NCBI GenBank assembly: GCA_029706075.1
Contig: JAINUG010000026.1
Location: forward strand, 6,342,674-6,406,673
Length of the DNA: 64,000 nt
DNA from: Aldrovandia affinis
Lineage: Eukaryota > Chordata > Actinopteri > Notacanthiformes > Halosauridae
Reading direction: 5' to 3'
The position numbers were made by a program, and so were the translations under genes. The notes under the pieces are model-generated. The model saw nothing but the letters and a program-made list of their open reading frames with translations. It was not told the origin of the DNA and searched no databases. Of this stretch, positions 1,165-55,444 are shown one piece after another (the first letter of the stretch is position 1; each line of letters opens with the position of its first letter).

Positions 1165-2126
1165 GGGATTGCTATGAGCCTTCTTTCACTTTCTTTCTTT
1201 TTCTTTCTCCTCGGTCTCCCACGCCTTTTTATTCCTTGTTCCAGCCACCTACTGAAGAGAGCAGAGCAGTTTTAAAGCACACCAATGTGATTAGTAAACA
1301 CCAGACCGGTGCGTGCGTTGGCTGCTCTGCCAGTAGGCGTGACCGCTAATCGCCCTGATCCGCTGCCGAGACTGACGCCTTCCACAATACTGCATATGCT
1401 ATCAAGGCAAAAAACTTCACCTGTACATTTTGGAAGAAGACTACACATTCTTCTGCACTGGCCCTTTATCAATTCCCAACAAGAAATCACACACTCCCGC
1501 CAGGCATTTACAGTATGGACTCTTTCTTTGAAGGTCAGACTGAAAGCACTTGAGAAAGTAAAATTGCAGCATGCTTGAAATTTCCCTCTCTTGCTGCCGT
1601 GCTTTGGTGGACTTCTTCAGATTGTGGCCGACAGTTTCCGACAGTTGAAAACCATTGAGTCAATACACTTAATTAAAAGATAAAATGCTAGCAATATTTC
1701 AAGAGGGCCAGCTATTTTTCTTTCTTCCACTTTATTTAAGCTTGTTCCTTAAAATAAATAGTGAGAGCCCTCACCTTGCAATACTTAGTAATAGTAATAC
1801 TTAATAGTGGAATCTAAATATAATCAGCCATGCTAGTATATGCTGGTGATTCTCCTTTTGAACATGCTTTGTAACATACTAAATCAAATATGAAGTTTGT
1901 TACGACTGGCCAAAATTTGACCCCTGAAAGACTGTTAAACGGCAGGTGCTTGTTTGCCAATTGAAGCCATGCTGGGAACGCGTGAACGGCCTTTGGAGCA
2001 GTAGAACTTTCTGGGGGCAGGTTTGGCACTCTCGCAGGGTGTGAGACTGCGAGACTGTGAACTGTTGCCTGGAAGGTTGTTTCAAAGGCCATAATTGGTA
2101 ATCATTAATCAGTTAATTGGAATGGG
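1165..2126. other. no gene seen; CT-rich start and a dispersed repeat
   Basis: Positions 1180-1225 are a CT-rich low-complexity run. The remainder shows no convincing coding region except the repeat at 1985-2094, listed separately. Open frames here are short and unlike any family I recognise. Confidence 0.5.
1985..2094 (-). repeat. dispersed repeat, inverted partner of 7009-7110
   Basis: The reverse complement closely matches 7009-7110, sharing ATTATGGCCTTTG, CTCACACCCTG and GAGAGTGCCAAACCTGCCCC with scattered differences. The two copies are in opposite orientation about 5 kb apart. One sits just before the LTR-like sequence at 2127 and the other abuts the 5' break of the L2 LINE at about 7010. 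The family is unknown to me. Confidence 0.65.
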
Positions 2127-18026: not shown

Positions 18027-18118
18027 TATATCCCAGAGTACTCAAATAACTTGGGGAAATCATATATAAACCAATTCCAATATATGAGAAGGGGGACCGT
18101 GCTGACCCAGGGAACTAT

Positions 18119-18828
18119 AGACCTGTCAGTTTAACTTGCATCGCATGTAAAATACTGGAATATATTATTAGGGATAACTTAAAATACTATTATTTTTCAA
18201 GAATGATTCCAAGGGAGAGCCAACATGGTTTTCTCAAAGAGAGGTCATGCCTAACAAACCTCCTGGACTTTTTTGAAGAGGCTACAAAGTGTGTTGACCT
18301 GAACCAGGCTTATTATATTATATATTTGGACTTTCAAAAAGCATTTGACAAGGTACCACATGAGAGGTTCATTGCTAAAATGAATTCAGTAGGAATTTCA
18401 GGAGTTGTCAGAGTGGGTTCAAAATTGGCTGCAAGGGCAAATACAAAGAGTGGGATTTGTACAGTAGGTGGGGCCATATCTGACCTAGGTGCTGTGGGCA
18501 GTGGAGTCCCACAGGGATCGGTGCTGGGACCTCTGCTCTTCCTTATTTACATAAATGATCTTGATAGGGATGTTAATGGCAAAATAGTTAAATTTTTACA
18601 GATGATGCTAAACTTGGGGGTTAGGCAAACAGTTTGGAATTGACTAAAGTAATCCACGATCATTTACACAAAATCCGAGAGTGGGCAGCAACATGGCAGA
18701 TGACATTCAATATTGCTAAATGTGAAGTTATGCATGTGGGAAATAAAAACACAAGACAGGACAGGAGTATTTTATGGGAGGAGAAAAGTTAGGTGTTCAA
18801 TTTGAAAAAGACTCAGACTTAATCCTAT
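18119..18828 (+). pseudogene. CR1-like LINE reverse transcriptase, middle part
   Basis: The frame contains RESQHGFLKERSCLTNLLDF, DFQKAFDKVPHERF (first catalytic Asp region) and GVPQGSVLGPLLFLIYINDL. The YADD-type active site should follow about 12 residues later. Instead the frame gives KFLQMMLNLG, consistent with a frameshift in the sequence AATTTTTACAGATGATGCT, where a shifted reading contains ADD-like codons. Downstream REWAATWQMTFNIAKCEVMH continues in another frame. The order matches CR1/jockey-group LINEs. Confidence 0.8.
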
Positions 18829-18853
18829 ATATTCCTATAATTTACCTATCAAG

Positions 18854-19906
18854 ATGGCGGCACGTGCACATCGCAAGGCCCAGCGTCTACCCAGATTGTG
18901 CGAATTAGCAGTTATTTACCTATTAGTTGTAAATCTGTTTATCCAAAACAGTCTTGCACTAATATCGTACACCCGAGAACATCTTTTGGACCTTGGATTA
19001 CAACAATCCCACGACGTTATAGCCGTTCTTCCGCTACCCAGCGAGATCGCTCGCACACCCGGGACTACTACTGCAGTGAGGCCGGCCGGCCGTGCTCCTC
19101 GACCGCGCAGAGAGCATAAACAAAGACGGGGTAAGCGGGGAGGCCTAAGGGCTAAGCTAAAGCTAACACCACACCAGCAGGCGCTCCCTAGCTTATTCCT
19201 CGCCAATGTTCGCTCTCTGGTGAACAAGATGGATGATCTACGGCTGTGGATTATCAACCACCATTGGATTAAGGACTGCAACGTCATGATATTGACGGAA
19301 TCCTGGCTCAATAGCGAAATTCCCAACAGTGCTGTTGAGCTAGCAGGACGCGAGCTACACAGAGTGGACAGATCAGCTGATTCGGGCAAATCACGGGGAG
19401 GAGGTCTGTGCATTTATGTAAACAAAGCTTGGTGCACAGACAATTCCACTGTTGAGAGTCACTGCTCTGTTAATCTGGAATATCTTGTAGTTAAATGCAG
19501 ACCTTTTTATCAGCCTAGGGAATTCACAGCTACCCTAGTGATTGCAGCCTACATACCCCCAGATGCTAATGCTAAGGTAGCAATGAAAGAGCTCCATGCT
19601 GCCATTAGCAAGTATCAGAGAACGCATCCGGAGGCAGCCTTTATCGTTGCAGGAGATTTCAATCACTCCAGCCTGAAGACTGTGCTCCCCAAGTTTTATC
19701 AGCATGTCTCTTGTCCCACAAGAGGCAACAAAACTTTAGACCATGTTTACACGAAAATAAAGGAGGCATACAGAGCTGTTCCCCTCCCCCACCCGGGACA
19801 GTCTGATCACCTCTCTTTGTTCCTACTACCCAAGTACACCCCACTCATCAAACGGATTAAGCCCCTGACCAGATCTGTGAAGATATGGCCTGAGGGGGCA
19901 GACTGA
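18854..19906 (+). CDS. LINE protein, N-terminal and AP-endonuclease part
   Basis: The 350-residue frame has a hydrophobic N-terminal stretch (LAVIYLLVVNLFIQN), an Arg/Lys-rich linker (residues about 85-100) and then the endonuclease. Its motifs are ANVRSLVNKMDD, LTESWLN (metal-binding Glu), RGGGLCIYVN, AAYIPPDAN, VAGDFNHSS and SDHLSLFL (Asp-His near the C-terminus). All catalytic motifs look intact. It ends in a stop at 19904-19906. A two-base loss near 19903 probably put the continuing reverse-transcriptase frame out of phase, so this is the first half of one protein. The start was chosen because it is the first ATG, 15 bases into the element. Confidence 0.85.
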   Translation: MAARAHRKAQRLPRLCELAVIYLLVVNLFIQNSLALISYTREHLLDLGLQQSHDVIAVLPLPSEIARTPGTTTAVRPAGRAPRPRREHKQRRGKRGGLRAKLKLTPHQQALPSLFLANVRSLVNKMDDLRLWIINHHWIKDCNVMILTESWLNSEIPNSAVELAGRELHRVDRSADSGKSRGGGLCIYVNKAWCTDNSTVESHCSVNLEYLVVKCRPFYQPREFTATLVIAAYIPPDANAKVAMKELHAAISKYQRTHPEAAFIVAGDFNHSSLKTVLPKFYQHVSCPTRGNKTLDHVYTKIKEAYRAVPLPHPGQSDHLSLFLLPKYTPLIKRIKPLTRSVKIWPEGAD

Positions 19907-21128
19907 GCTACAGCGCCGGCTACAACCCACGGACTGGAGCCTGTTTGCCACCCAGGCCACCACAGACTCCCACATAGACATTCACTCCTACACCTCCTCT
20001 GTTTTGGACCGTATCAGCTCCAACATCGACAGTGTCACCACCATCAAACGGATTACCACTTTCCCCAATCAGAAGCCGTGGATGAACAGAGAGGTCCGCT
20101 TACAGCTGAAAGCACGTGACACCGCTTTTAGATCTGGTGACAAGCGGGCCTACTGCTCAGCCAGGGCTGATCTGAACAGGGCAATCAAGCAGGTCAAGCA
20201 CAGCCACAAGCTCAAGGTTGAGGATCACTTCAACACTAATGATCCCCGACGCATGTGGCAGGGCATCCAGGCCATGACGGACTACAAACCCTCCAACAAC
20301 TCCCCCCCCGCAACTGACCCCTCCCTCCCTGATGAACTCAATAACTTCTATGCCCGCTTTGATAGAGACAACCGGGAGACGCCCACCAGGGCTGCTCTCC
20401 CTGCTGATCTCCAACCCCTCACTCTCTCCTCTACGGATGTGTTCGCCGCACTGAACAGGACTAATGCACGTAAGGCAGCTGGGCCTGATGGCATCCCCGG
20501 CCGGGTGCTCAGGAACTGTGCTGAGCAGCTGACGGAGGTGTTCACTGACATTTTCAACCTGTCTCTAGCCCAGGCAACTGTCCCAGCGTGCTTCAAGACC
20601 ACCTCCATCGTGCCTGTGCCGAAACACTCCTCCGCGACGAGCCACAACGACTTCCGCCCTGTTGCACTCACCTCCACCATCATGAAGTGCTTCAAGAGGC
20701 TGGTCCTCAAATCTGGCCTCTCACCATCTCTCGACAAACATCAATTTGCCTATCGTGAGAACAGGAACACGGACGACGCCATCTCCTCCGCGCTACACTC
20801 GGCCCTCACCCACCTGGACGAGAGCAACACTCACGTGCGAATGCGGTTCATCGACTTCAGCTCAGCATTCAACACCATCATCCCCTCCAAACTCATCTCC
20901 AAGCTTGGTGACCTTGTGGTAACCAAGGACCTGGACATCATCCCCTCCGTCTGCAACTGGATCCTCGACTTCCTGACCAACAGACCCCAGTCTGTTAGGA
21001 TAGGCAACCTCACCTCCTCCACCCTAACCCTGAACACCGGCGTCCCACAAGGCTGCGTGCTGAGCCCCCTTCTCTACTCCCTCTTTGAGGAAGGCTCACA
21101 GCATCATCAGAGACTCCTCTCACCCTAA
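19907..21128 (+). pseudogene. LINE reverse transcriptase lacking its active site
   Basis: The frame continues from the endonuclease part after a frameshift. It shows NQKPWMNREVRLQLKARD, RRMWQGIQAMTDYKPS, ARKAAGPDGIPGRVLRNC, NDFRPVALTSTIMKCF, FIDFSSAFNTIIPSKL (first catalytic Asp) and NTGVPQGCVLSPLLYSLF. Immediately after YSLF the sequence jumps to the C-terminal end (HSIIRDSSHPNHGLFALLPS in the next frame, 21094-21153). The FADD-type active site and the segment after it are gone. The protein could not synthesise DNA. Confidence 0.85.
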
Positions 21129-24480: not shown

Positions 24481-24504
24481 AACAGGTTATGCTGAGGCGT
24501 GTCC

Positions 24505-24852
24505 TTAAGCCACTGATCCCTCAACAGGGCCAGAGGACCACGCACCGTGGCCAAACACTAATTCCGCAGGACTGAATCCTGAAGACTCCTGTACTACCTC
24601 TCGGGATGCAAAAACCAACCATGGAATTGGGTAAAAGGGTGCAGGAGGAATAATCTGGTTAGGTTTCCCAATAACCTGACAGACATGACACGTTCTACAG
24701 AATTTCACATCTCGCTTTAAGCCGGGCCAAAAGAAATGCCGAAGGATGCGATCATATGTCTTATTGATCCCTAGATGTCCAGCCAAACCATCGTGAGCAA
24801 CACTTAAAACCTTGTTTCTGTAGTTAGATGGAATCACCATCTGAGAAATCAC
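24505..24852 (-). pseudogene. gypsy integrase with deleted core, copy 1
   Basis: The zinc-binding region is complete (HDGLAGHLGINKT for the His pair, CRTCHVCQ for the Cys pair). After PPAPFYPIP the reading jumps to WLVFASREVVQESSGFSPAE, which in copy 2 lies after the catalytic core. All three catalytic residues are therefore missing. The junction is a TGGAAT repeat (24622-24627). Confidence 0.85.
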
Positions 24853-25355
24853 CCTCCCCCATCAGGAACATCATGTGGCCTCCATTTCCTCATCAACACA
24901 TCATCTTTAAGGAAATATCCTTGGGGCATGGCATCAATCTCCTGATCAGGAGAGACACTCAGAGACACAAGGGTTGGATCGGCCTTCTGAGCAGAGATTA
25001 ATTTTGCTCGGGATAGTGGCATGTCGCAAATGGTGGTCTTCACCATAACATTCACAGTATCAGCCTTCTCTGGAACAAAGTCTTCAGATGTCTTGACAGT
25101 AGAGAGATAGACTGAGTCAGACATTTCAGGGTGCCCAAAAAACATGTCACGAAGGTCTACAAAACCCTCTTCCTGCAAACAGTCACTAGCATTGTGTTGC
25201 TTTGCCATAGCACGAGTGACAGCACATGTAGGGAAAACATTGGGATATTTCTGTTGCAGCTCATCTGGACCCTCACACACAAATGGCACAAACACAACCT
25301 CAGGTGGAGTGTCAGACTGTCTCCAAACATTTCTACCTGCCAGATCATTTCCCAA
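24849..25355 (-). pseudogene. gypsy protease-integrase linker, copy 1
   Basis: The frame runs from GNDLAGRNVWRQSDTPPEVV through CAVTRAMAKQ to FLKDDVLMRKWRPHDVP and matches copy 2. It leads into the integrase zinc region. No catalytic motif of its own is visible. Confidence 0.65.
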
Positions 25356-25767
25356 AATGAATGAAACACGGCACAGGGAGGGACGGTCGCACTCCCACTA
25401 CGACACTGCCAGTCACTAGGTCAGAGGTGAAATCAACCCGATGTAAAGGCAAGTCAACAAAACCCATCTCAAACCCTCGGATTAAGACACTAGTGCCAGT
25501 GGAGATCTGCTCAGACAGGGGTAAAACTCCTAGCAAGGAGGACTGAGCAGCGCCTGTATCTCTGAGAATACAGACGGGTGCTTTTCCACCCTGGCCAGGC
25601 ATTGACACAGAGCCACTCATGATGAATGGCGTGTAATCCATTCGATTACTGGGGCATTTAGATGGTGAGACATGGAATTGAGGTTCAGCAGAGTCACAAG
25701 AAGCCAAAGAAGCTACCAGGCCGACAGATTTAGCACCCTGCAGTTTTTTTTCCTGAGAATAAGGCAA
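25345..25767 (-). pseudogene. gypsy protease region, copy 1
   Basis: The frame contains CILRDTGAAQSSLLGVLPL, where DTGA is the active-site motif of retroviral-type aspartic proteases. It is followed by VLIRGFEMGFVDLPLHRVDF. The region is frameshifted from gag and from the following segment. Confidence 0.75.
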
Positions 25768-25776
25768 TTGGAAATC

Positions 25777-26427
25777 CTATGTCCTGGCTTTTTGCAGTAA
25801 AAACAGACTATCAGGGTATTTACCCACAGGGCTGCTAGACTTCTCAGCCAGCGGCACAGATCCAGTGGAAGTGGGCTTTGAGGAACAAAAACCCCTTTGG
25901 TGTTGGTCTTTGCCCTCATTACGAGGTTTTTCATCAAACACAACCTTATGGGTCAACACAAATTCATCAGCAAGGATGGCAGCATCTGATACATTGGTTA
26001 CTTTTTGTTCATTAAGATAAGTGGCAATGGCCTCAGGCAGACAATTCTTAAACTCCTCCATAACCATCATCTCACGGAGGTGTTCCCTAGTCTCAACCTT
26101 CTGAGTTCGACACCACCTATCAAACAACTGCCCCTTCTCCCTTGCAAACTCCACATAAGTGTGTTTATCCTGCTTAGCATAGCGTCGGAACTTCTGCCGG
26201 TATGCCTCAGGTACCAGTTCGTATGTACGCAAGATTGCAGCCCGGACTAAATCATAATTAGCACTGTCATCAAACGATAAAGAGGAATATGCCTCTTGGG
26301 CCTTACCAGTAAGGACACATTGCAGCAGCAAAGTCCAAATGTCCTTGGGCCAATTTAAAGAGGTGGCCACCCTCTCAAAATGAGAAAAGTACTTCTCTAC
26401 TTCCTTTTCTGAAAACGGAGGGACCAT
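25777..26427 (-). pseudogene. gypsy gag with complete SCAN-like region, copy 1
   Basis: The frame starts MVPPFSEKEVEKYFSHFERV, a capsid-like N-terminal helix set. It continues with REHLREMMVMEEFKNCLP and NEQKVTNVSDAAILADEFVL, which strongly resembles the SCAN dimerisation domain of vertebrate zinc-finger proteins. This copy keeps the 24 residues (QDKHTY to WCRTQ) that copy 2 lacks. The frame fails just before the CCHC zinc knuckle, which continues in another frame (25713-25943, CFYCKKPGHRISNC). Confidence 0.8.
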
Positions 26428-26561
26428 GCGAATATGCTTACCTACCTCAAATGCAACAGGAGAGGTAATCTTCTTACTTTCAACATCTAACCTCTTTTGC
26501 TGCTAATTCCAACCTTTTTATTTCCAATTCACGATCAAGTAACTGCAATTTCAATAAAACC

Positions 26562-26789
26562 TCAGACTATGAGTCGCGAGGGAGACTCATGCGTCTCACT
26601 CAAACTGGGCGACTCATCTTTAACTTTAAACACCCTCATGTCAGTCAAAATTGCCTTCAAGGTCTTAACGTTGGCCCTAAGTCGTTTATCACTACTAGTA
26701 ATCTCAATTTGGTAGTGTTCTGCAATTTTAAACAACTGATCTTTGGTAAACTCACCTAGCAAGTCCTCAGAGGGATCATCAAAAAACAT
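26562..26789 (-). pseudogene. gypsy gag N-terminal part, copy 1
   Basis: The 75-residue frame starts MFFDDPSEDLLGEFTKDQLF and matches copy 2. It is mostly alpha-helix-like with charged residues. It ends before the coiled-coil region and is out of frame with the next gag segment. Confidence 0.65.
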
Positions 26790-26819
26790 CTTAAGAGATA
26801 ATACAGACTAAATGCAGTC

Positions 26820-28017
26820 ACGAATTAGAACCACCTACCTAATAAAGCACAATAATACACGAGGCAAAAGAGAAAATTGGATCAACAGTGCACCAGCACC
26901 GCAAATAGCAGTAATAGTGTAGTAAACACTAACCACTGCCAATACCATAGGTTACACAAAAGGCTATAGTAAGGTAAAACAAGTACCATTAACCTAATCA
27001 CTACACTTCGTGTAGTATCACAGCCCAGGGAAACTGCGTGACAGTACAATAATGAACAATAACAGTATCACCATAAGTAACCATTTACAGCGATGCACAA
27101 AATTACACTAATGTGACGTGACTAGCGCTACGAAAACGAACATTAGGCTACTAAGTGACAATGGTAGCATCAAAACCATCCCATATAACATGGGAATGAA
27201 TTACGAAAGTAGCACATAGATTTACTTACTTTCGCGCTCTCAGAAAAGCACACAGAAGTAATTCTATCACAGCTCACAGCCACCACGGCTTGAAAGACAC
27301 GCGTCACAGTTCACGAAGCAAATTGCAATGTGGACGCGCCAAGTTTGCTACACTCAAAAGCATGAACAAACAAACAGCCATGAACATAGAAATGGAAATG
27401 GCTCTAAAGAACGTGCAAAAACACAGCTACCGATTGCATTATCGAAAGCAACAAACTGCAAATGTAAAAATGTAGCGAATTTCCACACTTACCCAAAGAC
27501 AACCGCACGCGCTCTCATCACAGTGTCCTCCGCCTCAGCAAAATCACAAGTGATACTAATCACACTAATTGCAACGATAAACAGAGTCATTGTGCGTTAA
27601 TTTGCCTGGTGTATGCGTAGGTTGCCAAGGCTTCCCCCCAGGTCCTAACTGCCTAATAGAAACAAAATCTAACTAACAAACCTAATCTAGTCTTCAGTGC
27701 ATTTACTGGACTCGAGGCGGCTTTTAAACGCAAAACCCGTGAACGCTAAAGAAGACCAATTGAATAGCCAACCACAGCGAACCGGAGCGTACCCCCATCC
27801 AGGATTAACACCAAAAAATAAAAAAGGCAAAATAACAAAATGACAAGCCCACAGGGCATGCCCGGCGACTACAATTATCTGAGGGAGTCACGGCAAACCA
27901 CGCACGGTAAACCAAAACTACGCAAAACAAGAAAGAAAGAAAGCATGAAAGCTGGCAACAGCTATGGCTCAAAAACACAAAACAAAAATCTAGGGGCAAA
28001 TCAAAACCGGATCAGAT
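26820..28017. other. gypsy leader region, copy 1, no gene
   Basis: About 1.2 kb of untranslated leader between primer site and gag start, closely matching 49500-50650 in copy 2. No open frame is shared by both copies with convincing protein character. Confidence 0.6.
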
Positions 28018-28035
28018 CTCCCGGACGAGTGCCCA
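28018..28035 (-). other. tRNA primer-binding site, copy 1
   Basis: The minus strand reads TGGGCACTCGTCCGGGAG four bases after the LTR end. A TGG start just inside the 5' LTR is the standard place where a tRNA 3' CCA end primes reverse transcription. Copy 2 has the same site at 50651-50668. Confidence 0.8.
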
Positions 28036-28039
28036 ATTA

Positions 28040-28333
28040 TGTTACGACCAGCCCCTGGCCAGTTGCAACATAAAAGAGAGCACACAAAGTTGGTTCAATT
28101 CAAAAATGTTTTAAATTAAAGGAACCTAATAAATAGGGGAAAAAAGAATAAGTAGCGTAGCCAGACTGCAGGTTGCCCTCTGAATGGAGAGAGAGAGAGA
28201 GAGAGCATCAGCCAGAGGGCCTCCTAAGTAGACCCCCTCCAGGTGACTCCAATTTCCTATTAGGAAGACAATCAGGACAATTAAGGCAACACCACAAGCG
28301 GCCATTAGGGCACAAGGGGTAGGGGCCATAACA
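28040..28333 (-). repeat. gypsy 5' LTR, copy 1
   Basis: In plus coordinates it runs from TGTTACGACC to GGCCATAACA. It is about 294 bases and near-identical to 50673-50952. The internal GA run is short here (about 28191-28206). Confidence 0.9.
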
Positions 28334-34659: not shown

Positions 34660-36049
34660 TGCCCATCCAAAAAAACAGTCACACACTCTAATATTTCGTT
34701 GGACCGCCTTTCGCATTCGCCGTGGCATCGTTTCGATAAGCTTCTGCAATGTCACAACATTTATTTCCGTCCAGAGTTGCATACATTTTTCGCCAAGATC
34801 GTGCATTGATGATGGGAGAGTCGGACCGCTGCGCAAAGTCTTCTCCAGCACATCCCAAAGATTCTCAATGGGGTTAAGGTCTGGACTCTGTGGTGGCCAA
34901 TCCATGTGTGAAAATTATGTCTCATGCTCCCTGAACCAGTCTTTCACAATTTGAGCCCGATGAATCGTGGCATTGTCATCTTGAATATGCCCGTGCCATC
35001 AGGGAAGAAAAATCCATTGATGGAAAAACCTGGTCATTCAGTATATTCAGGTAGTCAGCTGACCTCATTCTTTGGGCACATAACGTTGCTGAACCTAGAC
35101 CTGACCAACTGCAGCAACCCCAGATCATAACACTGCCCCCACAGGCTTGTACGGTAGGCACTAGGCATGATGGGTGCATCACTTCATCCGCCTCTCTTCT
35201 TACCCTGATGCACCCATTGTTATGGATAGAAATCAACATGCGTTGTAATAACCAGGCGTACAATATCGGACGTAACACTAAGCCACTTAATCAATAACCA
35301 CAACCCGTAAGGAGTACCAGTGAAACAGTGGTATAGAAAAGTTAAACATATATTTATTAATATGTATACTGTACATTTAATGATTGTTCTCTCTATTTAT
35401 AACATGAAAGTCCTTTAAAAGACAAAAAAAACAGGTTGTAAGGTCTCACCGGACATCCAGCTAGTGGTTCCAGACCCTCGAAGATGATAGGGGAGGTCTT
35501 CTCCTCGGAGTTCCCAAAATTGTATTACGAATAGCAATTATTTATTAATTAGCAACTAAGCGGATAATCAGAGTAACGCAATCACCAAGCTGTAATTAAC
35601 AATGTCGTAAAGGGAATTGATGACATTCAGGTGGCAACCACTATATATTGTCCCGCATCTTTTTAAAAGTCTCCTCAGTGATGTAGCCAAGCGATGTCCA
35701 GCCGCATCTTCTGACGTCACATTGCTTGGAGGGTTCCCCTGGAAACCATGTGCGTCCTCAAGCAGGTCCCAGCAGGGCAGTGACGTCATCTCCACCTAAA
35801 GGGGATAAATCAAGGAAACACAGCAGCACGCAAATCCAAAAGGAAACACAAAGTAGTGCTAATACAAAGTAAAGGGACGTAACACCCATCACTCTGGAAC
35901 AGGGTAAATCTGGACTCTTCAGACGACATGACCTTCTTCCATTGCTCCAGAGTCCAATCTTTATGCTCCCTATCAAATTGAAGCCTTTTTTTCCGATTAG
36001 CCTCACTGACAAGTGGTTTTCTTAAGGCTACACAGCAGTTTAGTCCCAA
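34660..36049 (-). pseudogene. Tc1-like transposase, catalytic part, broken
   Basis: After VALRKPLVSEANRKKRLQF (36027-35970) comes WKKVMSSEESRFTLF (about 35935-35893). In Tc1 the first catalytic Asp lies in an SDE motif; here it reads SEE. The solo LTR interrupts next. The frame resumes at 35212 with GCIRVRREADEVMHPSCLVP and GGSVMIWGCCSWSGLG. The second Asp motif (QDDNATIHRA) is readable in another frame at about 34985. The third (WPPQSPDLNPIENLWDVLEK, Glu present) lies at 34902-34843. Confidence 0.8.
35218..35884. mobile_element. solo LTR, copy 1, inside the Tc1-like element
   Basis: The 667-bp sequence from TGTTATGG to GACGTAACA is flanked by perfect 5-bp duplications CCCAT (35213-35217 and 35885-35889). 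It closely matches 45003-45670. No internal retroelement sequence is attached, so it is a recombination product of a complete element. Orientation is uncertain from the LTR alone. Confidence 0.9.
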
Positions 36050-41965: not shown

Positions 41966-42656
41966 TCACATTTCCTTGTAGGGAGAATACACTGGGAGGG
42001 GCTCAGGTATCTTCCTGCCATTTGAAAAGATCATGCAATTGGTTTTGGAAACGTTTAAAACAAGTTTCAGTTCTACAAGCTGACGTTCCACAGAGTTAAA
42101 AGCAGCCTGTAGGTAGCCAAGGGCCTCAGCAAGGGTGGAACCACAACAGTAAATGACAGTATCGTCAGCATAGAAATGGAAATTGGCATCAGGGACATTT
42201 CTGCCAAGTACATCCACATAAATAGTAAACAAAATTGGACCCAAAACAGAGCCCTGGGGCACACCAGAGGAGACATTTAACATTGTAGAAGAACTACCAT
42301 TAAAATGTGTACATTGCATTCTGTCTGACAGATAGTTATCAAACCAACCAACTGCTTGTTTTGACAGACCAATATTCAACAATCTTTGTTTCAGGATGGA
42401 ATGATCCACAGTGTCAAAGGCCTTGGAGAGGTCAACAAAGAGGGCTGTGCAGAATTTGTTGTTGTCCAGTCACTCTATTAGGTCGTTTGTGACTTTTAAG
42501 GAGGCTGTGATGGTACTGTGTTGCTTCCTGAAACCAGATTGATATGGGGGAGAGAATATTGTTTGTTTGGAGAAAGTCCTTCAACTGATCATTTATCAAC
42601 CTTTCAAGGACCTTTGACAGAATGCACAACTTCGAGATTGGCCGATAGTTATTCAA
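41966..42656 (-). pseudogene. LINE reverse transcriptase with YADD
   Basis: The upstream frame gives NNYRPISKLCILSKVLERL and IWFQEATQYHHSLLK. The first catalytic Asp region lies in the frame break. The next frame gives SGVPQGSVLGPILFTIYVDV and FYADDTVIYC, the active site. It continues with LKLVLNVSKTNCMIF. The order is normal for an L2/CR1-group LINE. Confidence 0.85.
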
Positions 42657-42788
42657 ACAGGTAGGATCCCCTCCTTTTAAAAGAGGAAGAACATGAGCAA
42701 CCTTCCAAATCGCAGGAATGCAATTGTTAGTGATGGTAAGGTTGAAAATACATTGGATAGGTTTAGCAATGAAATCAGCAGCTAACTT

Positions 42789-43373
42789 TTAAAAACGAGG
42801 TTCTAACCCATCTGGGCCTGCGGATTTCGTAATATCCAAAGAAAGGAGAGCTCTATGGACTTCTTCCACTGTGAACAATGTAAAACAAAAAGAATGACCA
42901 GCAGGTATGTGACCAGCACCTGTAGCAGAAGGCACTGAACCTGCGGCTGGTGAGTCAATTTGGGGAGAAGAACGAGAGAACAGAGAGCCAGAGGCAATAA
43001 AATGCTTATTAAAGCAGTCAAGCATGGAAGCCCTATCAGATATAGTAATGTCATTGTAAACAATGCTGGATGGGAGGTCACTATGATTCTCATGTGCTGA
43101 AATGGATTTAATCACCTTCCAAAATGTTTTGGGGTCATTTAAATTTTCCGTTGTTGCTGAGAGATAGAAGTTGGATTTGGCTTTTTTGATCAGAAAAGTA
43201 AAGCGATTTCTGAGTTGCCTGAAAGTAAGCCAATCAGCCTCGGACCCGGTGTTTCTGGCTGTGGCCCAAGCCAGATTTCTATTTTGCAGAAGGTCAGATA
43301 GCTCAGGTGTGAACCAAGGGTTGTCTCTCCCTTTTATTTTATACCTTAGCATCTGTGTAAATAATAAAAGCAA
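42789..43373 (-). pseudogene. LINE linker and start of reverse transcriptase
   Basis: The 194-residue frame contains KGRDNPWFTPELSDLLQNRN, WLTFRQLRNRFTFLIKKAKS, NDPKTFWKVIKSIS and SLDITKSAGPDGLEPRF. These are the region between endonuclease and reverse transcriptase and the first reverse-transcriptase block. It is interrupted by a stop after EPRF. Confidence 0.85.
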
Positions 43374-43375
43374 AT

Positions 43376-43558
43376 TTTAATAAATATATATATGAAATAT
43401 TTACAATGAAACTTTCCTGCTGTGTGGGCACTTTATTCTGTGGTTGGTTGTTTCTTTCAGTTGAGTCAGTTATCGGCTTCAACACTTTTTGGTGTGAGGC
43501 AAGGCATATTACCATGGTAACCCCAGCCTAAAAAAAGTGTTTGAAACTTTGGCAAGGA
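43376..43558. other. spacer, no gene
   Basis: Short AT-rich stretch left of the gypsy element. Confidence 0.5.
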
Positions 43559-43563
43559 GTTGG

Positions 43564-43698
43564 TGTTACGACCAGCCCCTGGCCAGTTGCAACATAAGAG
43601 AACACACAAAGTTGGTTCAAAAATGTTTTTAATTAAAGGAACCTAATAAATAGGGAAAAAAGAATAAGTAGCGTAGCCAGACTGCAGGTTGCCCTCTG

Positions 43699-43794
<96 letters not shown>

Positions 43795-43913
43795 ATCAGC
43801 TAGAGGGCCTCCTAAGTAGACCCCCTCCAGGTGACACCAATTTCCTATTAGGAAAACAATCAAGACAATTAAGGCAACACCACAAGCGGCCACTAGGGGT
43901 AGGGGCCATAACA
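43564..43913 (-). repeat. gypsy 3' LTR with expanded GA run
   Basis: It matches the 5' LTR except for a GA microsatellite of about 90 bases (43703-43793), where the other two LTRs have 14-16 bases, and a few small differences. Confidence 0.95.
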
Positions 43914-44169
43914 CAAAAATGGTCACATAATTATACAGGATAATAATTCCACAAGATACACCAAAATAGACAGAGACCCTAATACTACCCACCAAGCAGT
44001 GTCCACTCACCGACCCGCAACTCCACTCCATCAGCTCCAATGACCCCGGCGCCTGGGAAAATCGAAGTAGGAGGGAGAAGCGTGGCCTAGAGAGCAGCCC
44101 GGAGATGGAGAGCACAGGAGACCCCCCCAATAAAAATTGTCGCCCTACATCCTCGACAACGCATCAGCT
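43914..44169. other. gypsy 3' untranslated region
   Basis: Untranslated sequence between RNase H and the 3' LTR. A G-run (complement of 44126-44132) could serve as a purine tract but lies far from the LTR, so I do not call it. Confidence 0.4.
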
Positions 44170-45002
44170 ATCACGTTGTCTTTCCCCTGAATGGGATTAA
44201 TTTTGAGATTGAAGGCCTGTAGTATGAGGCTCCAGCGCATCAACCTCTGATTTTAATTATGCATGCGGTTCAAGAAAACCAATGGATTATGGTCCGTATA
44301 TACAAGAACAGGGCATGAAGAGGAGCCAACATAAACCTTGAAGTGTTGGACAGCGAGAACCAGGGCGAGTGCCTCCTTCTCCACGGTTGAGTATCCACGC
44401 TGCTGCGGACTAAACTTCTTGGAGAAGTAGCAGACTGGATGTTCAACGCAATCAGGAGCAACCTGGAGAAGGACGGCACCCGCCCCGAAGTCACTTGCAT
44501 CCACAGCGAGACGGAAAGGCTTTGAGAAGTCTGGAGCCGCTAATACTGCGGCATTAACTAACAGGGCTTTGGCGTTCTCAAACGCACACTGGCTGGAGTC
44601 AGACCGACGACGCGACGACAGTAGAGACATTTTTACAGAAATTCCTGTAGTATCCAGCCATAGCTAAGAATCGACGTACTTTTCGGCGGTTGGTTGGTAC
44701 AGGAAATTGACAGATAGCCTCGACCTTTGCTCCTACCGGACGCACTTGCCCCCTTCCAACGACCTTACCCAAGTAGGTTACAGTAGCTCTACCAAACTCA
44801 CTTGGCTAGGTTAATGGTGAGGTTAGCAACCAACAAACGGTCAAAAAGCTCCCGTATATGACCTAAATGCTTGGATCACGAGGAGCGAAACACCACCACA
44901 TCATCGAGATATGCCTCACAGCTGGAAAGACCGGACAAAACGTAGTTAACGAGACGTTGGAATGTGGCAGGCGCATTTCTCATGCCAAATGGCATTACCT
45001 TG
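44170..45002 (-). pseudogene. gypsy reverse-transcriptase end and RNase H
   Basis: Left of the solo LTR the frame resumes with MPFGMRNAPATFQRLVNYVL and the active site AYLDDVVVF (YLDD at 44911-44900). A frameshift precedes RNase H: FSKPFRLAVDASDFGAGAVL (first Asp), STVEKEALALVLAVQHFKVY (Glu), VYTDHNPLVFLNRM (second Asp), then KDNVIADALSR at the end. The order matches standard Ty3/gypsy reverse transcriptase and RNase H. Confidence 0.85.
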
Positions 45003-45670
45003 TGTTACGTATAGAAATCAACCTGCGTTGTAATAACCAGGCGTACAATATCGGACGTAACACTAAGCCACTTAATCAATAACCACAACCCGTAAGGAGT
45101 ACCAGTGAAACAGTGGTATAGAAAAGTTAGACATATATTTATTAATATGAACACATTTGATGATTGTTCTCTGTATTTATAACATGGAAGTCCTTGAAAA
45201 GACAAAAACAGGTTGCAAGGTCTCACCGGATAGCTAGCTAGCGGTTCCAGACCCTCGAAGATGATAGGGGAGGTCTTCTCCTCGGAGTTCCCAAAATGGT
45301 ATTACGAATAGCAATATTTATTAATGAGCAACTAGGCGGGTAATCAGAGTAACGCAATCACCAAGCTGTAATTAACAATGTCGTAAAGGGAACTTTGATA
45401 TATATAGCGGCATTCCGGTGGTAACCACTATATATAGTCCCGCGTCTTTTTAAAAAGTCTCCTCCGTGATGTAGTCAAGCGATGTCCGGCCGCATCTTCT
45501 CTCGTCACGTTGCTTGGAAGGTTCCCCTGGAAACCATGTGCGTCCTCACGCAGGTCCCAGCAGGGCAGTGACGTCATCTCCACCTAGGGGAGAAATCAAG
45601 GAAACACAGCAGCAGGCAAATCCAAAAGGAAACACAAAGTAATGGCAACACAAAGTAAAGGGACGTAACA
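45003..45670. mobile_element. solo LTR, copy 2, inside the gypsy element
   Basis: The 668-bp sequence from TGTTACGT to GACGTAACA has perfect 5-bp duplications CCTTG (44998-45002 and 45671-45675). It is closely related to 35218-35884. It splits the reverse transcriptase just before GMPFGM and therefore arrived after the gypsy element. Confidence 0.92.
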
Positions 45671-46928
45671 CCTTGTACTGAAGGAAAGAGTCTGGCGTGA
45701 CAAATGCAGATATCTCCATAGCACGAGTGGACAATGGAACCTGCCAGTAGCCTTTCAGAAGATTGAACTTACTGACAAATCTGGCAGATCCCACCCTATC
45801 GACACAATCGTCCATTCGTGGTAGGGGATAACAATCAGGTGTGGTGACAGAATTAACCCTTCGATAATCGGTACAAAAATGATATGAACCATCTGGTTTG
45901 TTTACCAACAAACATGGAGAACTCCATGGACTTGAGCTTGGTTCAGCAATATCGTGAGTCAGCATATAATCAACCTCCTTTCGCAAGAGCTCACGCTTCA
46001 AGGGGTTGACACGATAAGCATGTTGCTTAATGGGGAGTGCAGAACCCACATCAATGTCATGTTCCATAACAGATGTACGACTGGGCACATCAGGAAAAAG
46101 AGAAGGGTAAGACTGAACTAGGTCAACAATGTCAGCCTTCTCAGCACCTGAAAGGTGAGGGAGGTGCTCAGAAAAAGAGGAAAATATCTCAGAATTTTGT
46201 AAGCGACCCTCTATCACACACCGAGATGGAGAAGTCACACCCTCCTCACTCTCCTCCGGGAGTGAGGACGACGCAACATTCCTATCCCGGGAATAAACAG
46301 TCACATCCCCCACACTCCTCTCCAGGAGTGGAGACGAGGCAACAGTCAACCCTGGGAAGGTGAAGAAAGGCGAAGGTGAAGGTTGAAGCACAGCAGAGTG
46401 CAATACAGGCTGTACAGTAGGCCCCCTCACATGGTAGGGCTTTAACATGTTGATATGACACAATTGCGTAGGCCATCGCCTATCAGGGGTGATGATAACA
46501 TAATCACGTTCGGAAACCCTACGTTCAACCACATAATGACCACTATACCGTGCCTGCATAACAGAACCAGCAATGGGCAGCAGAACCAACACCTTATCAC
46601 CGGGGTCAAACTTGCGGACCTGAGCTTTACGGTCAAACCAGTGTTTAATTTTCCCCTGAGCAACTTCAAGGTTCTGGTTTGCCAAGTCACGGGCTCGGTT
46701 TAACCGAGAGCGAAATTTGCTGACGTACTCCAACAGGTTATGCTGAGTCGTGTCCTTAAGCCACTGATCCCTCAACAGGGCCAGAGGATCAGGCACCGTG
46801 TGGCCAAACACTAATTCCGCAGGACTGAATCCTAAAGACTCCTGCACTACCTCTCGGGACGCAAAAACCAACCATGGAATGCCCTCCTCCCAATCCTTCC
46901 CCAGCTCCAAACAGTAAGTGCGAAGCAT
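45671..46928 (-). CDS. gypsy integrase C-terminus and reverse-transcriptase start
   Basis: The frame opens MLRTYCLELGKDWEEGIPWL of the integrase end, passes SPAELVFGHTVPDPL, a basic stretch and the GPY/F-like VLVLLPIAGSVMQARYSGHY (about residues 120-139). It then enters reverse transcriptase with DVGSALPIKQHAYRVNPLK, SSSPWSSPCLLVNKPDG, FCTDYRRVNSVTTPDCYPLP and FNLLKGYWQVPLS (first Asp position reads N in KFN). The original codons end at 45671 where the solo LTR begins; the open frame runs on into the LTR to 45546 by chance. Integrase and reverse transcriptase share one frame here, direct evidence for the unusual gene order. Confidence 0.85.
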
Positions 46929-47024
46929 AGTCTTAAGGGTTTGGTGAAACCTTGCTAAGGGCCCTTGGCTCTCAGCATGATAAGCACTGGAGACATTATG
47001 CTTGATTTGGAGCTGTTGAAGGAC

Positions 47025-47399
47025 TTATGCAAAGACACGTGACATGAAGTTGGTTCCCTGGTCGCTTTGAATGACCCTAGGGAGGCCAAAAACAGAGAAG
47101 AACTTTACTAAGGCTTTGATGACTGCTTTTGCAGTAATCTTCCACAGAGGGACAGCCTCTGGGAAGCGAGTACCAGCACACATGATTCTTAAGTACTGAT
47201 AGCCCCGTTTTGACCGTGGAGTAGGCCCAACACAATCCCAAATTATATGGTCAAAGGGCTCTCCAACTACTGGAATTGGGTAAAGGGGTGCAGGAGGAAT
47301 GGTCTGGTTAGGTTTCCCGATAACCTGACAGACATGACATGTTCTACAGAATTTCACCACATCTAGCCGGGCCAAAAAAATGCCGAAGGATGCGATCAC
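47025..47399 (-). pseudogene. gypsy integrase catalytic core
   Basis: The frame includes CRTCHVCQVIGKPNQ, FDHIIWDCVGPTPRSKRGY (first catalytic Asp in WDCVG), RFPEAVPLWKITAKAV and VIQSDQGTNFMSRVF (second Asp). The third acidic position lies in the next stretch (about 46953) and reads LARFHQ instead of the family's LERFHQ, so the catalytic Glu is Ala. Integration activity would be lost even without the frameshifts. Confidence 0.85.
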
Positions 47400-47793
47400 A
47401 TGTTTTATTGATCCCTAGATGTCCGGCCAAACCATCGTGAGCAACACTTAAAACCTTGTTTCTGTAGTTAGATGGAATCACCATCTGAGAAATCACCCTC
47501 CACCCATAAGGAACATCATGCGGCCTCCATTTCCTCATCAACACACCACCTTTAAGGAAATATCCTTGGGGCATGGCATCAATCTGCTGATCAGGAGAGA
47601 CAGACTCAAACAGAGACACAAGGGTTGGATCGGCCTTCTGAGCAGAGATTAATTTTGCTCGGGATAGTGGCATGTCATAAATGGTGGTCTTCACCATAAC
47701 ATTCACAGTATCAGCCTTCTCTGGAACAAAGTCTTCAGATGTCTTGACAGTAAAGAGAGAGATAGACTGAGTCAGACATTTCAGGGTGCCCAA
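47344..47793 (-). pseudogene. gypsy integrase N-terminal zinc region
   Basis: After the linker (QIDAMPQGYFLKGGVLMRKW) the frame gives VAHDGLAGHLGINKT, with the two His of the HHCC zinc site, and ILRHFFGPARC. The Cys pair CRTCHVCQ follows in the next frame, so a small indel near 47370 separates them. Confidence 0.85.
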
Positions 47794-49022
47794 AAAACGT
47801 CACGAAGGTCTACAAAACCCTCTTCCTGCAAACAGTCACTAGCATTGCGTTGCTTTGCCATAGCACGAGTGACAGCACATGTAGGGAAAACATTGGGATA
47901 TTTCCGTTCCAACTCATCTGGACCCTCACACACCAATGGCACAGACACAACCTCGGGTGGAGTGTCAGACTGTCTCCAAACATTTCCACCTGCCAGATCG
48001 TTTCCCAAAATGAATGTAACACCAGGCACAGGGAGGGACGGTCGCACTCCCACTACGACACTGCCAGTCACTAGGTCAGAGGTGAAATCAACCCAATGTA
48101 AAAGCACGTCAACAAAACCCATCTCAAACCCTCGGATTAAGACACTAGTGCCAGTGGAGGTCTGCTCAGACAGGGGTAAAACTCCTTCTAGCAAGAAGGA
48201 CTGAGCAGCGCCTGTATCTCTGAGAATACAGACGGGTGCTTTTCCACCCTGGCCAGGCATTGACACAGAGCCACTCATGAGGAATGGCGTGTAATCCATT
48301 CGATTACTGGGGCATTTAGATGGTGAGACATGGAATTGAGGTTCAGCAGAGTCACAAGAAGCCAAAGAAGCTACCAGGCTGACAGATTGAGCACCCTGCT
48401 GTTTTTTCCTGAGAACAGGGCAATTGGAAATCCTATGTCCTGGCTTTTTGCAGTAAAAACAGACTCCATCAGGGTATTTACCCACAGGGCTGCTAGACTT
48501 CTCAGCCAGCGGCACAGATGGCACAAGGCCAGTGGAAGTGGGCTTTGAGGAACAAAAACCCCTTTGGTGTTTGTCTTTGCCCTCATTATGAGGTTTTTCA
48601 CCAAACACAACCTTATGGGTCAACACAAATTCATCAGCAAGGATGGCAGCATCTGACACATTGGTTACTTTTTGTTCATTAAGATAAGTGGCAATGGCCT
48701 CAGGCAGACAATTCTTAAACTCCTCCATAACCATCATCTCATGGAGGTGTTCCCTAGTCTCAACCTTCTTAGCATAGTGTCGGAACTTCTGCCGGTATGC
48801 CTCAGGTACCAGTTCGTATGTACGCAAGATGGCAGCCTGGACTAAATCATAATCAGCACTGTCATCAAACGATAAAGAGGAATATGCCTCTTGGGCCTTA
48901 CCAGTAAGGACACATTGCAGCAGCAAAGTCCAAATGTCCTTGGGCCAATTTAAAGAGGTGGCCACCCTCTCAAAATGAGAAAAGTACTTCTCTACTTCCT
49001 TTTCCGAAAACGGAGGGACCAT
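47781..49022 (-). CDS. gypsy gag-protease frame: SCAN-like, CCHC, aspartic protease
   Basis: The 413-residue frame has, in order: a capsid-like region (VEKYFSHFERVATSLNWPKD, about residues 9-28); a shortened SCAN-like region (MMVMEEFKNCLPEAIATYLN, about 97-116); a CCHC zinc knuckle CFYCKKPGHRISNC (about 190-203) that binds RNA; and the protease motif LRDTGAAQ (about 268-275). It ends at a stop after VFWAP, just before integrase. The SCAN-like part lacks 24 residues present in copy 1, an in-frame loss. The upstream N-terminal gag is out of frame, so the true start is at 49466. Confidence 0.85.
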   Translation of the reverse strand: MVPPFSEKEVEKYFSHFERVATSLNWPKDIWTLLLQCVLTGKAQEAYSSLSFDDSADYDLVQAAILRTYELVPEAYRQKFRHYAKKVETREHLHEMMVMEEFKNCLPEAIATYLNEQKVTNVSDAAILADEFVLTHKVVFGEKPHNEGKDKHQRGFCSSKPTSTGLVPSVPLAEKSSSPVGKYPDGVCFYCKKPGHRISNCPVLRKKQQGAQSVSLVASLASCDSAEPQFHVSPSKCPSNRMDYTPFLMSGSVSMPGQGGKAPVCILRDTGAAQSFLLEGVLPLSEQTSTGTSVLIRGFEMGFVDVLLHWVDFTSDLVTGSVVVGVRPSLPVPGVTFILGNDLAGGNVWRQSDTPPEVVSVPLVCEGPDELERKYPNVFPTCAVTRAMAKQRNASDCLQEEGFVDLRDVFWAP

Positions 49023-49084
49023 GCGAATATGCTTACCTACCTCAAATGCAACAGGAGAGGTAGTCTTCTTACTTTCAACATCTA

Positions 49085-49205
49085 ACCTCTATTTCCAAAT
49101 CTGCCTCTTTTGCTGCTAATTCCAACCTTTTCATTTCCAATTCTGCCTCTTTTGCTGGTAATTCCAACCTTTTTATTTCCAATTCACGATCAAGTGACTG
49201 CAATT
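49085..49205 (-). repeat. gag coiled-coil repeat units
   Basis: On the minus strand a 39-45 base unit coding for residues like LEIKRLELPAKEAELEMKRL recurs about three times. The Leu and Glu/Lys spacing fits a heptad coiled coil, probably for gag multimerisation. Copy 1 (about 26490-26540) has about one unit. Confidence 0.65.
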
Positions 49206-49250
49206 TCAATAAAACCTCAGACTATGAGTCGTGAGGGAGACTCATGCGTC

Positions 49251-49466
49251 TCACTCAAACTGGGTGACTCCTCTAACTTTAAACACCCTCATGTCAGTCA
49301 AAATTGCCTTCAAGGTGTTAACAACGTTGGCCCTAAGTCGTTTATCACTACTAGTAATTTCAATTTGGTAGTGTTCTGCAATTTTAAACAGCTGATCTTT
49401 GGTAAACTCATCTAGCAAGTCCTCAGAGGGATCATCAAAAAACATCTGAAGGTCAACTGTAGCCAT
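49251..49466 (-). pseudogene. gypsy gag N-terminal part, copy 2
   Basis: The start ATG was placed at 49466 (MATVDLQMFFDDPSEDLLDE) because it is the first ATG after the leader and in frame with the copy 1 match. The protein is helical and acidic. It stops at VRGVTQFE, where copy 1 reads further, so there is a local frame break before the coiled-coil region. Confidence 0.7.
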
Positions 49467-50650
49467 CTTAAGAGATAATACAGACCAAATGCAGTCAAGA
49501 ATCCTAGAACACAATTAGAACCACCTACCTAAGAACACAATAATACATGAGGCAAAAGAGAAAATTGGATCAACAGTGCACCAGCACCGCAAATAGCAGT
49601 AATACAGTGTAGTAAACACTAACAACTGCCAATACCATAGGTTACACAAAAGGCTATAGGAAGGCAAAACAAGTACCATTAACCTAATCACTACACTTCG
49701 TGAAGTATCACAGCCCAGGAAAACTGCGTGACAGTACAATAATTAATTTACAGCGATGCACAAAATTTGTACACTAATGTTATGTGACTAGCGCTACGAA
49801 AACAAACATTAGCCTACTAAGACACAATGGTAGCATCAAAACCATCCCATATAACACGGGAATGAATCAGGAAAGTAGCACATAGAATTACTTTCGCTCT
49901 CTCAGAAAAGCACACAGAAGTAATTCTATCACAGCTCACAGCCACCACGGCTTGAAGCAGTTCACGAAGCAAGTTGCAATGTGGACGCGCCAAGTTTGCT
50001 ACACTCAAAAGCACAAACAAACAAACAGCCATGAACATAGAAATGGAAATGGCTCTAAAGAGCGTGCAAAAACACAGCTACCGATTGCATTATCAAAAGC
50101 AAAAAACAAACTGCAAATGTAAAAATGTAGCGAATTTCCACTTACCAAAAGACAACCGCACGCTCTCTCATCATAGCGTCCTCCGCCTCAGCAAAATCAC
50201 AAGTGATACTAATCACACTAATTACAATGATAAGCGGAGTCACTGTGCGTTAATTTGCCTGGTGTGTGCGTAGGTTGCCAAGGCTTCCCCACAGGTCCTA
50301 ACTGCCTCATAGAAACAAAAATCTAACTAACAAACCTAATCTAGTCTTCAGTGCATTTACTGGACTCGAGGCGGCTTTTAAACGCAAAACCCGTGAACGC
50401 TAAAGAAGACTAATTGAATAGCCAACCACAGCGAACCGGAGCGTACGCCCATCCAGGATTAACACCGAAAAACTAAAAAGCCCACAAGGCATGCCCGACG
50501 ACTACAATTATCTGAGGGAGTCACGGCAAACCACGCACGGTAAACCAAAACTACGCAAAACAAGAAAGAAAGAAAGCATGAAAGCTGGCAACAGCTATGG
50601 CTCAAAAACACAAAAGAAAAATCTAGGGGCAAATCAAAACCGGATCAGAT
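49467..50650. other. gypsy leader region, no gene
   Basis: About 1.2 kb between primer site and gag start, matching 26820-28017. No shared coding frame was recognised. Confidence 0.6.
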
Positions 50651-50668
50651 CTCCCGGACGAGTGCCCA
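50651..50668 (-). other. tRNA primer-binding site, copy 2
   Basis: The minus strand reads TGGGCACTCGTCCGGGAG four bases inside the LTR, identical to copy 1. Confidence 0.85.
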
Positions 50669-50672
50669 ATTA

Positions 50673-50952
50673 TGTTACGACCAGCCCCTGGCCAGTTGCA
50701 ACATAAGAGAACACACAAAGTTGGTTCAATTCAAAAATGTTTTAAATTAAAGGAACCTAATAAATAGGGGAAAAAAGAATAAGTAGCGTAGCCAGACTGC
50801 AGGTTGCCCTCTGAATGGAGAGAGAGAGAGAGCATCAGCCAGAGGGCCTCCTAAGTAGACCCCCTCCAGGTGACACCAATTTCCTATTAGGAAAACAATC
50901 AAGACAATTAAGGTAACACCACAAGCGGCCACTAGGGGTAGGGGCCATAACA
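50673..50952 (-). repeat. gypsy 5' LTR, copy 2
   Basis: In plus coordinates it runs TGTTACGACC to GGCCATAACA, 280 bases, near-identical to 28040-28333. The GA run is short (about 50820-50833). Confidence 0.95.
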
Positions 50953-50957
50953 GTTGG

Positions 50958-54063: not shown

Positions 54064-54723
54064 TTAGAAGGATAACTGATGCAATCTTGAAGACAGATTT
54101 TTTGTAAGTTTAGCTACCGTGTTAAATAGAAATCTTGGGTTGTTTTTATTCTGGTCAATTAATTTTGAGAAGTACGATGACCTAGCTGTAGTAAGGGCAT
54201 GCTTGTATTCTATGAGGCTGTCCTTCCAAGCAGAACGAAAAACCTCTAAATTGGTAGAGCGCCATCTGCGTTCTAATTTCTTGGAAACTTGTTTAAGGAC
54301 ACGGGTATGGTCAGTAAACCAGGGTGCAAGTTTCTTCTGACTGCATTTTTTCCTCTTGAGGGGTGCGACAGCATCAAGTGTATTCTGTAAAATATGATTT
54401 ACCGCATCTGTTTGATGATCAATTGACAAAAAGCTGTTTGGGTCCTGACTTGATACTAACGATTCGGGAAGTATGTTTATACATTTTGAAGCCGTCAATG
54501 AATTTATAGAGCGGCTGGAATAGTATCTAGGTTCCGATTTAATAGGAATATTTACCTGAATTTCAAAAGCAATCAAAAAGTGATCCGATAGTAAAGGATT
54601 ATGGGGAGACACAATTATATTCTCGACATCAATACCATAGGATAACACTAAATCAAAGGTTGTGGCAGTGAGTTGGTTCAGATATATTTTGAATAAAACC
54701 AACAGAGTCAATAATAGCTGCAA
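54064..54723 (-). pseudogene. LINE endonuclease end and linker
   Basis: The 219-residue frame starts in the endonuclease end (TATTFDLVLSYGIDVENI, then LLSDHFLIAF) and continues through KKCSQKKLAPWFTDHTRVLK, LERRWRSTNLEVFRSAWKD and NPRFLFNTVAKLTKN. This is the linker before reverse transcriptase. It goes out of frame at about 54090 and reverse transcriptase never starts. Confidence 0.8.
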
Positions 54724-55375
54724 AAGCCAGTCCTAAATGGTCACTGTCATTATCAACATGTATGTTGAAATCTCCAACAATCACAACTTTATCTGCTATA
54801 GTTGCCAAGCTTGATAAAAACTCTGCAAACTCAGAAAGAAAGACAGTATACGGTCCAGGTGGTCTATAAATTGTTACTAAGAGGAAGGATTGCACTGAGG
54901 TAACTTTATCTTTTGACCGTCCAGAAAGCATAACAAGCGATTCAAAAGAGGAGAACTTATCCCCACATTTAGGTGTGAAACTACATTTTGTCGCAAAAAT
55001 CACAGCAACACCGCCCCCTCTACCGGACAGATGCGGCGCTTGACAGCTAGCATAACCATCAGGAGATGCCTCATTAAGTGCACTGTATTCGTCAGGCCTA
55101 AGCCAGATTTCAGTGAAACTAATCAGGTCAAAACTATGGTCCGAGATTAGTTTGTTCATAAGAACTGCCTTGGGGGAAAGTGATCTAACATTTAACAATC
55201 CACATTTAAGATATGTCTTATTACAGGCAACACTTACAGCAGGCTGTGAGGTTTTAATATAAATAAGATTATGTACACAAATGCCACGACAGCCAGTGTG
55301 CTCAGATAGCTTTTTATTTCTAAAACCATTTCCAAAACGAGGGACAGACACAGTCTCAATAGCTAAGCTAGTCAC
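54653..55375 (-). CDS. LINE AP endonuclease
   Basis: The 240-residue frame contains CGLLNVRSLSPKAVLMNKLI, FTEIWL (metal-binding Glu), SGRGGGVAVIF, VTIYRPPGPY and IVGDFNIHVDND. The remaining motif SDHFLIAF continues in the next frame (54723-54064), where LSDHFLIAFEIQ appears. A one-base shift near 54690 separates them. All endonuclease motifs are present across the two frames. Confidence 0.85.
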   Translation of the reverse strand: MTSLAIETVSVPRFGNGFRNKKLSEHTGCRGICVHNLIYIKTSQPAVSVACNKTYLKCGLLNVRSLSPKAVLMNKLISDHSFDLISFTEIWLRPDEYSALNEASPDGYASCQAPHLSGRGGGVAVIFATKCSFTPKCGDKFSSFESLVMLSGRSKDKVTSVQSFLLVTIYRPPGPYTVFLSEFAEFLSSLATIADKVVIVGDFNIHVDNDSDHLGLAFAAIIDSVGFIQNISEPTHCHNL

Positions 55376-55444
55376 GGGTTTTTGGAAGCTAGCAGACAGT
55401 AGTTTAGGACCAGAAGTCTGCTGCCTGGCTAGCGCTCTGAGAGG

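Follow-up and report, generated by a model that had tools for sequence, protein, structure and literature searches.

A 64,000-nucleotide stretch of the Aldrovandia affinis genome (here, the window) contains a long terminal repeat (LTR) retrotransposon of 7.4 kb on its minus strand at 43559-50957, the element proper running from 50952 down to 43564. With a probability of about 0.95, this element belongs to a low-copy Ty3/gypsy LTR retrotransposon family of the Gmr1 type, as a copy that inserted recently and is now defective. Its features are given below in the order of the element strand, with the basis of the assignment in brackets; siblings are further copies of the family in the same genome, and RT denotes reverse transcriptase.

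50953-50957: target-site duplication, 5' side of the element (CCAAC on the element strand)
50673-50952, minus strand: 5' LTR, 280 bp, TGTTA...TAACA
50651-50668, minus strand: primer-binding site complementary to tRNA-Pro, 3 mismatches in 18
49251-49499, minus strand: gag N-terminal segment, frame MATVDLQMFF..., ending in a stop and also found in siblings
48764-48772, minus strand: junction where 72 bases of the SCAN-like domain are deleted (comparison with siblings)
48615-48767, minus strand: SCAN-like capsid domain, remaining part, profile positions 37-87 of 90 (Pfam)
48417-48464, minus strand: zinc knuckle (CCHC) of the nucleocapsid (Pfam)
47970-48230, minus strand: protease region, DTG ... 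ILGNDLAG pattern, approximate limits (motif)
47322-47478, minus strand: integrase zinc-binding domain (H2C2), divided between two frames (Pfam)
47031-47258, minus strand: integrase core (rve), under cut-off in the element (Pfam)
46437-46535, minus strand: integrase C-terminal domain (p58_C), under cut-off in the element (Pfam)
45671-46178, minus strand: RT N-terminal piece, in an open frame shared with the integrase C-terminus (Pfam, homologues, tree)
45003-45670, minus strand: solo LTR inside RT, 668 bp, TGTTACG...CGTAACA (duplication CAAGG)
44664-45002, minus strand: RT C-terminal piece with YLDD (siblings, motif)
44262-44600, minus strand: RNase H (Pfam, tree)
43913-43914, minus strand: junction with ~35 bases missing next to the 3' LTR, polypurine tract included (siblings)
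43564-43913, minus strand: 3' LTR, 350 bp, with an expanded CT array
43559-43563: target-site duplication, 3' side of the element (GTTGG on the plus strand, CCAAC on the element strand)

Both LTRs and the GTTGG duplication, which an earlier sequence-only reading of this DNA had proposed, were thus located, and the difference in length between the two LTRs was mostly attributable to the CT array in the 3' LTR. The primer-binding site starts 4 bases past the 5' LTR and complements the 3' end of a tRNA-Pro gene of the same genome (L065), with 15 of 18 bases matching in the element, 16 in sibling L055 and 17 in siblings L060 and L064. A G-rich polypurine tract adjoins the 3' LTR in all six siblings examined and has been lost from the element. 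The family therefore displays two TG...CA LTRs, a target duplication, a primer-binding site and, via the siblings, a polypurine tract, all hallmarks of LTR retrotransposons. Neither Rfam nor tRNA scans gave any hit in the window.

The LTR pair of the element was shown to differ by 3 mismatches over 274 aligned bases, with 3 gaps (Kimura two-parameter distance, K2P, 0.011; 1.1% divergence). If each site accumulates 2.5e-9 to 1e-8 substitutions per year, this would correspond to an age of roughly 0.5-2 million years, an estimate that is based on just three changes and may be affected by LTR conversion. Indeed, an old element whose LTRs look young through gene conversion would fit the many internal lesions (frame breaks, two deletions and an insertion already reduced to a solo LTR), which stand against only 3 LTR mismatches. 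However, four of the five sibling LTR pairs tested are young as well (K2P 0.004, 0.004, 0.018 and 0.025, compared with 0.11 for the fifth, which has a broken LTR), and recent activity of the family is thus explained without conversion, rendering great age of the element unlikely. Five-base duplications were found to flank three of these five pairs (L059, L060 and L063, not L055 and L058). The copy, here regarded as recently inserted, is dead: it carries stops and frame breaks, its RT is split by a solo LTR, 72 bases of gag are deleted and the polypurine tract is lost.

The solo LTR within RT is flanked by the CAAGG duplication (45671-45675 and 44998-45002). It is absent from all eight siblings that contain both RT pieces, seven of which show the exact 5-base overlap of the empty site. 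The same LTR was matched at all 40 places scored in the genome, out of 292 candidates. On C1848 (L066), such an LTR lies downstream of RT, RNase H and a G-rich tract, ~240 bases separating RNase H from the LTR, in an element that is about 73% alike to the present family in the RT piece; consequently, the inserted LTR belongs to a distinct family. That family is probably integrase-first. A related solo LTR, flanked by the duplication ATGGG, was observed at 35218-35884 (minus strand).

Pfam analysis of the separate open pieces of the element yielded the 5'-3' order SCAN, zinc knuckle, Integrase_H2C2, rve, Integrase_p58_C, RVT_1 and RNase H. Cut-offs were passed by SCAN, the zinc knuckle, one of the two H2C2 pieces and RNase H (105.8 bits; RT_RNaseH_2, E 1.3e-30), while rve, p58_C and RVT_1 scored under theirs in the damaged element and are all three backed by homologues. 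Pfam gave no match for the protease region, and an NCBIfam search returned nothing useful; we take the DTG...ILGND pattern to be that of a protease and YLDD to be the RT motif. The DT and LGND residues are nearly invariant (at least 90%) in an alignment of 40 homologues with the gag frame of a second copy in the window (see below), a frame that itself ends before this pattern. The order gag, protease, integrase, RT, RNase H that had been put forward from the sequence was therefore borne out by Pfam together with the protease motif.

The frame said to run unbroken from integrase into RT was also recovered, as an open frame at 45549-47024 that joins the integrase C-terminus to the RT N-terminus and reaches the inserted solo LTR at 45671. 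The gag/pol frame is broken in the element, and in the second copy a single frame leads from where the protease ends in the direction of the integrase. The integrase-RT stretch 45674-46925 produced 1265 protein matches (best E 6.5e-144), with identities among the matches listed of at best 56% over the whole query and 58-59% over 78% of it. Rearrangement of an ordinary integrase-last gypsy element, placing integrase ahead of RT in this element only, can be rejected as exceedingly improbable. Such events do occur in this genome, as seen in sibling L062, where a rearrangement has left gag and RT on opposite strands. However, the order is shared by seven of the ten long sibling loci used for this comparison (L055, L056, L058, L060, L061, L063 and L064 out of L055-L064), in which integrase and then RT lie on one strand, the RT piece being lost from L057 and L059. 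Furthermore, 118 of the 120 homologues listed align over the integrase-RT join in one piece, the element keeps an open frame across it, and the ~350 bases that separate RNase H from the 3' LTR could not accommodate an integrase.

A phylogenetic tree of the RT N-terminal piece was constructed from 46 rows, comprising the element, 4 siblings, 20 homologues (selected from 118 with the segment), 20 RTs from further gypsy elements in this genome, and Ty3, whose order we take to be integrase-last. The element joined its siblings (100/99), followed by fish and unnamed integrase-first rows (97/92; 100/94), and a wider set added proteins of sea cucumber, brittle star, mollusc and coral (98/99). Among 30 loci of the same genome, order was read by Pfam in ten: integrase comes first in L026, L029, L034, L035 and L040 and last in L018, L025 and L027, and L039 and L042 have no integrase within the stretch given. 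The five integrase-first loci constitute a second, deeper integrase-first lineage, with open frames of 1465 (L026), 1485 (L029) and 1443 (L034) residues, which was sister to the set containing the element. The integrase-first rows were set apart from the four integrase-last rows (L018, L025, L027 and Ty3) with moderate support (88/84).

RNase H lies beyond the inserted LTR from the RT N-terminal piece, and a separate RNase H tree (49 rows, of which 15 were homologues chosen from 42 with RNase H) gave the same grouping: the own family was recovered at 100/96, the lineage of the element at 100/98, and the integrase-first set against three integrase-last rows at 89/57, again moderate. For both trees a long-branch warning applies, and integrase-last rows are few. 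Both trees, which contain no Gmr1-labelled row, thus place the element among integrase-first elements and separate it from integrase-last ones, Ty3 being one of these in the RT tree; no sequence with this label occurred among the 120 matches listed for gag or the 120 for integrase-RT. The name Gmr1 is accordingly supported, at the level of sequence comparison, by domain order, the SCAN-type gag and membership in a clade whose integrase-first homologues come from fish, echinoderms, one mollusc and one coral.

The gag of the element matched SCAN (PF02023) at 31.7 bits, above the curated cut-off of 27 (E 1.3e-7). This match is partial, covering only the C-terminal part of the domain, because 72 bases inside the domain are deleted; the missing segment is retained in all 34 sibling gag matches that reach the deletion junction from the left. 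The second copy carries the whole domain (63.7 bits, E 1.4e-17, profile positions 1-87 of 90), and in one sibling the SCAN match lies inside a 948-residue open frame. Across the genome, all 150 scored SCAN matches passed the cut-off (913 candidates), and profile searches for SCAN and RNase H gave matches in none of 14 control genomes. Coincidental resemblance to a short motif (MEEFKNCLP) would suit the mere 51 residues matched in the element and its single-sequence search of solved structures, which returned only ZNF174 at E 0.15, but such an origin is exceedingly improbable given the score above cut-off in the element, the full domain of the second copy, its sequence matches to ZNF24 (E 8.2e-7) and ZNF174 (E 2.5e-6), and a predicted-fold search with a monomer model in which SCAN structures head a list of 189 chains.

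The two checks that the sequence-only reading had suggested, a SCAN search of gag and an RT tree, both turned out in its favour. The SCAN-like peptide that it had quoted is present in the window, but it was assigned to the wrong copy: REHLREMMVMEEFKNCLP belongs to the second copy (near 26040-26094), and the element reads REHLHEMMVMEEFKNCLP. Among the gag matches listed, the best identity was 51% over most of the query, and the nearest was a partial match in Anguilla anguilla (85% over 47% of the query); those with names were all from fish, except for one sea cucumber. A 42-base tandem duplication at 49091-49174, between the gag N-terminal segment and the capsid, was seen to code for a charged, coiled-coil-like stretch.

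The second copy, also on the minus strand, comprises the following.

24481-28333, minus strand: second copy of the element family, truncated on its 3' side (homology ends at 24481)
28040-28333, minus strand: 5' LTR of the second copy
25948-26211, minus strand: complete SCAN-like domain of the second copy (Pfam)

Most of its integrase core is deleted, and the deletion junction, which bears a short imperfect repeat, is common to a copy on C69 (L007). Genome searches, whose copy counts are lower bounds, scored 40 of 94 candidates for the RT piece (23 at 90-100% identity, element included, and 17 at 69-73%), 40 of 63 for the integrase piece and 40 of 160 candidate places for gag, the latter with 78 matches and all 40 places at 91% or more. 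Since gag places at this identity outnumber family RT places (23 of 40 scored, at least 90%) and two copies share a deletion junction, SCAN-bearing copies lacking the integrase core may have spread as non-autonomous derivatives supported by full copies. This proposal is tentative and rather doubtful, as the imperfect repeat would allow the same deletion to arise twice. If it holds, a SCAN-type gag would be able to move without the integrase of its own element, which would offer host genes a plausible way of capturing it.

Comparison with yeast Ty3 revealed a two-lobed capsid in both and the best match of the RT N-terminal piece among solved structures (4ol8, E 1.4e-23), whereas Ty3, presumably integrase-last, falls outside the clade of the element. 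The sequence-only reading had stated that Gmr1-group elements are known for integrase-first order and for a gag proposed as the source of SCAN, and passages in published sources agree. In Gmr1 elements, integrase is usually upstream of RT, unlike in others (a statement in PMC8220671, citing Goodwin and Poulter 2002 and Butler 2001), and SCAN is described as derived from, or strikingly homologous to, the gag of Gmr1-like elements (passages in PMC3424704 and PMC4592553, through which the claim of Emerson and Thomas 2011 is taken). In frogs, more than half of the Gmr elements are reported to contain SCAN (PMC4131045), and Gmr families of 6.1-6.5 kb, with gag and pol in one frame and LTRs of 337-518 bp, are described from Tetraodontiformes (PMC11117352).

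The present element resembles the Gmr1 clade (cod Gmr1, compared by description only) in integrase upstream of RT, the absence of room for an integrase after RNase H, a SCAN-type gag and a fish host, but it is a separate family by sequence among the matches listed. It differs from the Tetraodontiformes families in its LTRs (280 and 350 bp) and in being disabled. The domain of the second copy matches nearly the whole SCAN profile (positions 1-87 of 90) and shares its predicted fold with the SCAN domains of ZNF24, ZNF174 and PEG3; unlike in zinc-finger proteins, it is the second lobe of a Gag capsid, with a zinc knuckle and protease downstream. As integrase-first order and SCAN-like gag are already published for Gmr1-like elements, the element constitutes a new family of known type, i.e. 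an ordinary, well-explained member that confirms existing knowledge.

From the LTRs, the duplications of the element and three siblings, the tRNA-Pro complementarity, the sibling polypurine tract, the domain order and the capsid fold prediction, we infer how the family may work. Translation of an LTR-to-LTR RNA would give Gag and Pol, probably joined in a single polyprotein. Two CA folds are modelled in the capsid; the second of them is the SCAN-like domain and, by comparison with retroviral capsid and SCAN structures, should make Gag-Gag contact. tRNA-Pro would prime minus-strand DNA, the G-rich tract adjoining the 3' LTR would prime the plus strand, and integrase would insert the DNA with a 5-bp duplication. 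The element itself is disabled by frame breaks, the 72-base gag deletion (before or after insertion), loss of the polypurine tract and insertion into RT of another element, probably integrase-first, of which a solo LTR is left.

Remains of other elements were also observed in the window: a gypsy-type integrase fragment (H2C2, rve) of another LTR element at 622-1185 (minus strand); further RVT_1 fragments with an integrase zinc domain, RT first, at 15731-17519 (plus strand), the integrase match being just at cut-off; and apparent non-LTR retrotransposon remains, five pieces of which were tested, with endonuclease and RT frames at 18050-21125 (plus strand), 41966-43376 and 54064-55444 (both minus strand).

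The element adds one more fish family to those proposed as the source of the SCAN domain. In both sequence and predicted fold, the second capsid lobe of its family's gag can still be matched to solved mammalian SCAN structures. A single genome holds two deep integrase-first lineages, with a related family nested inside the element.
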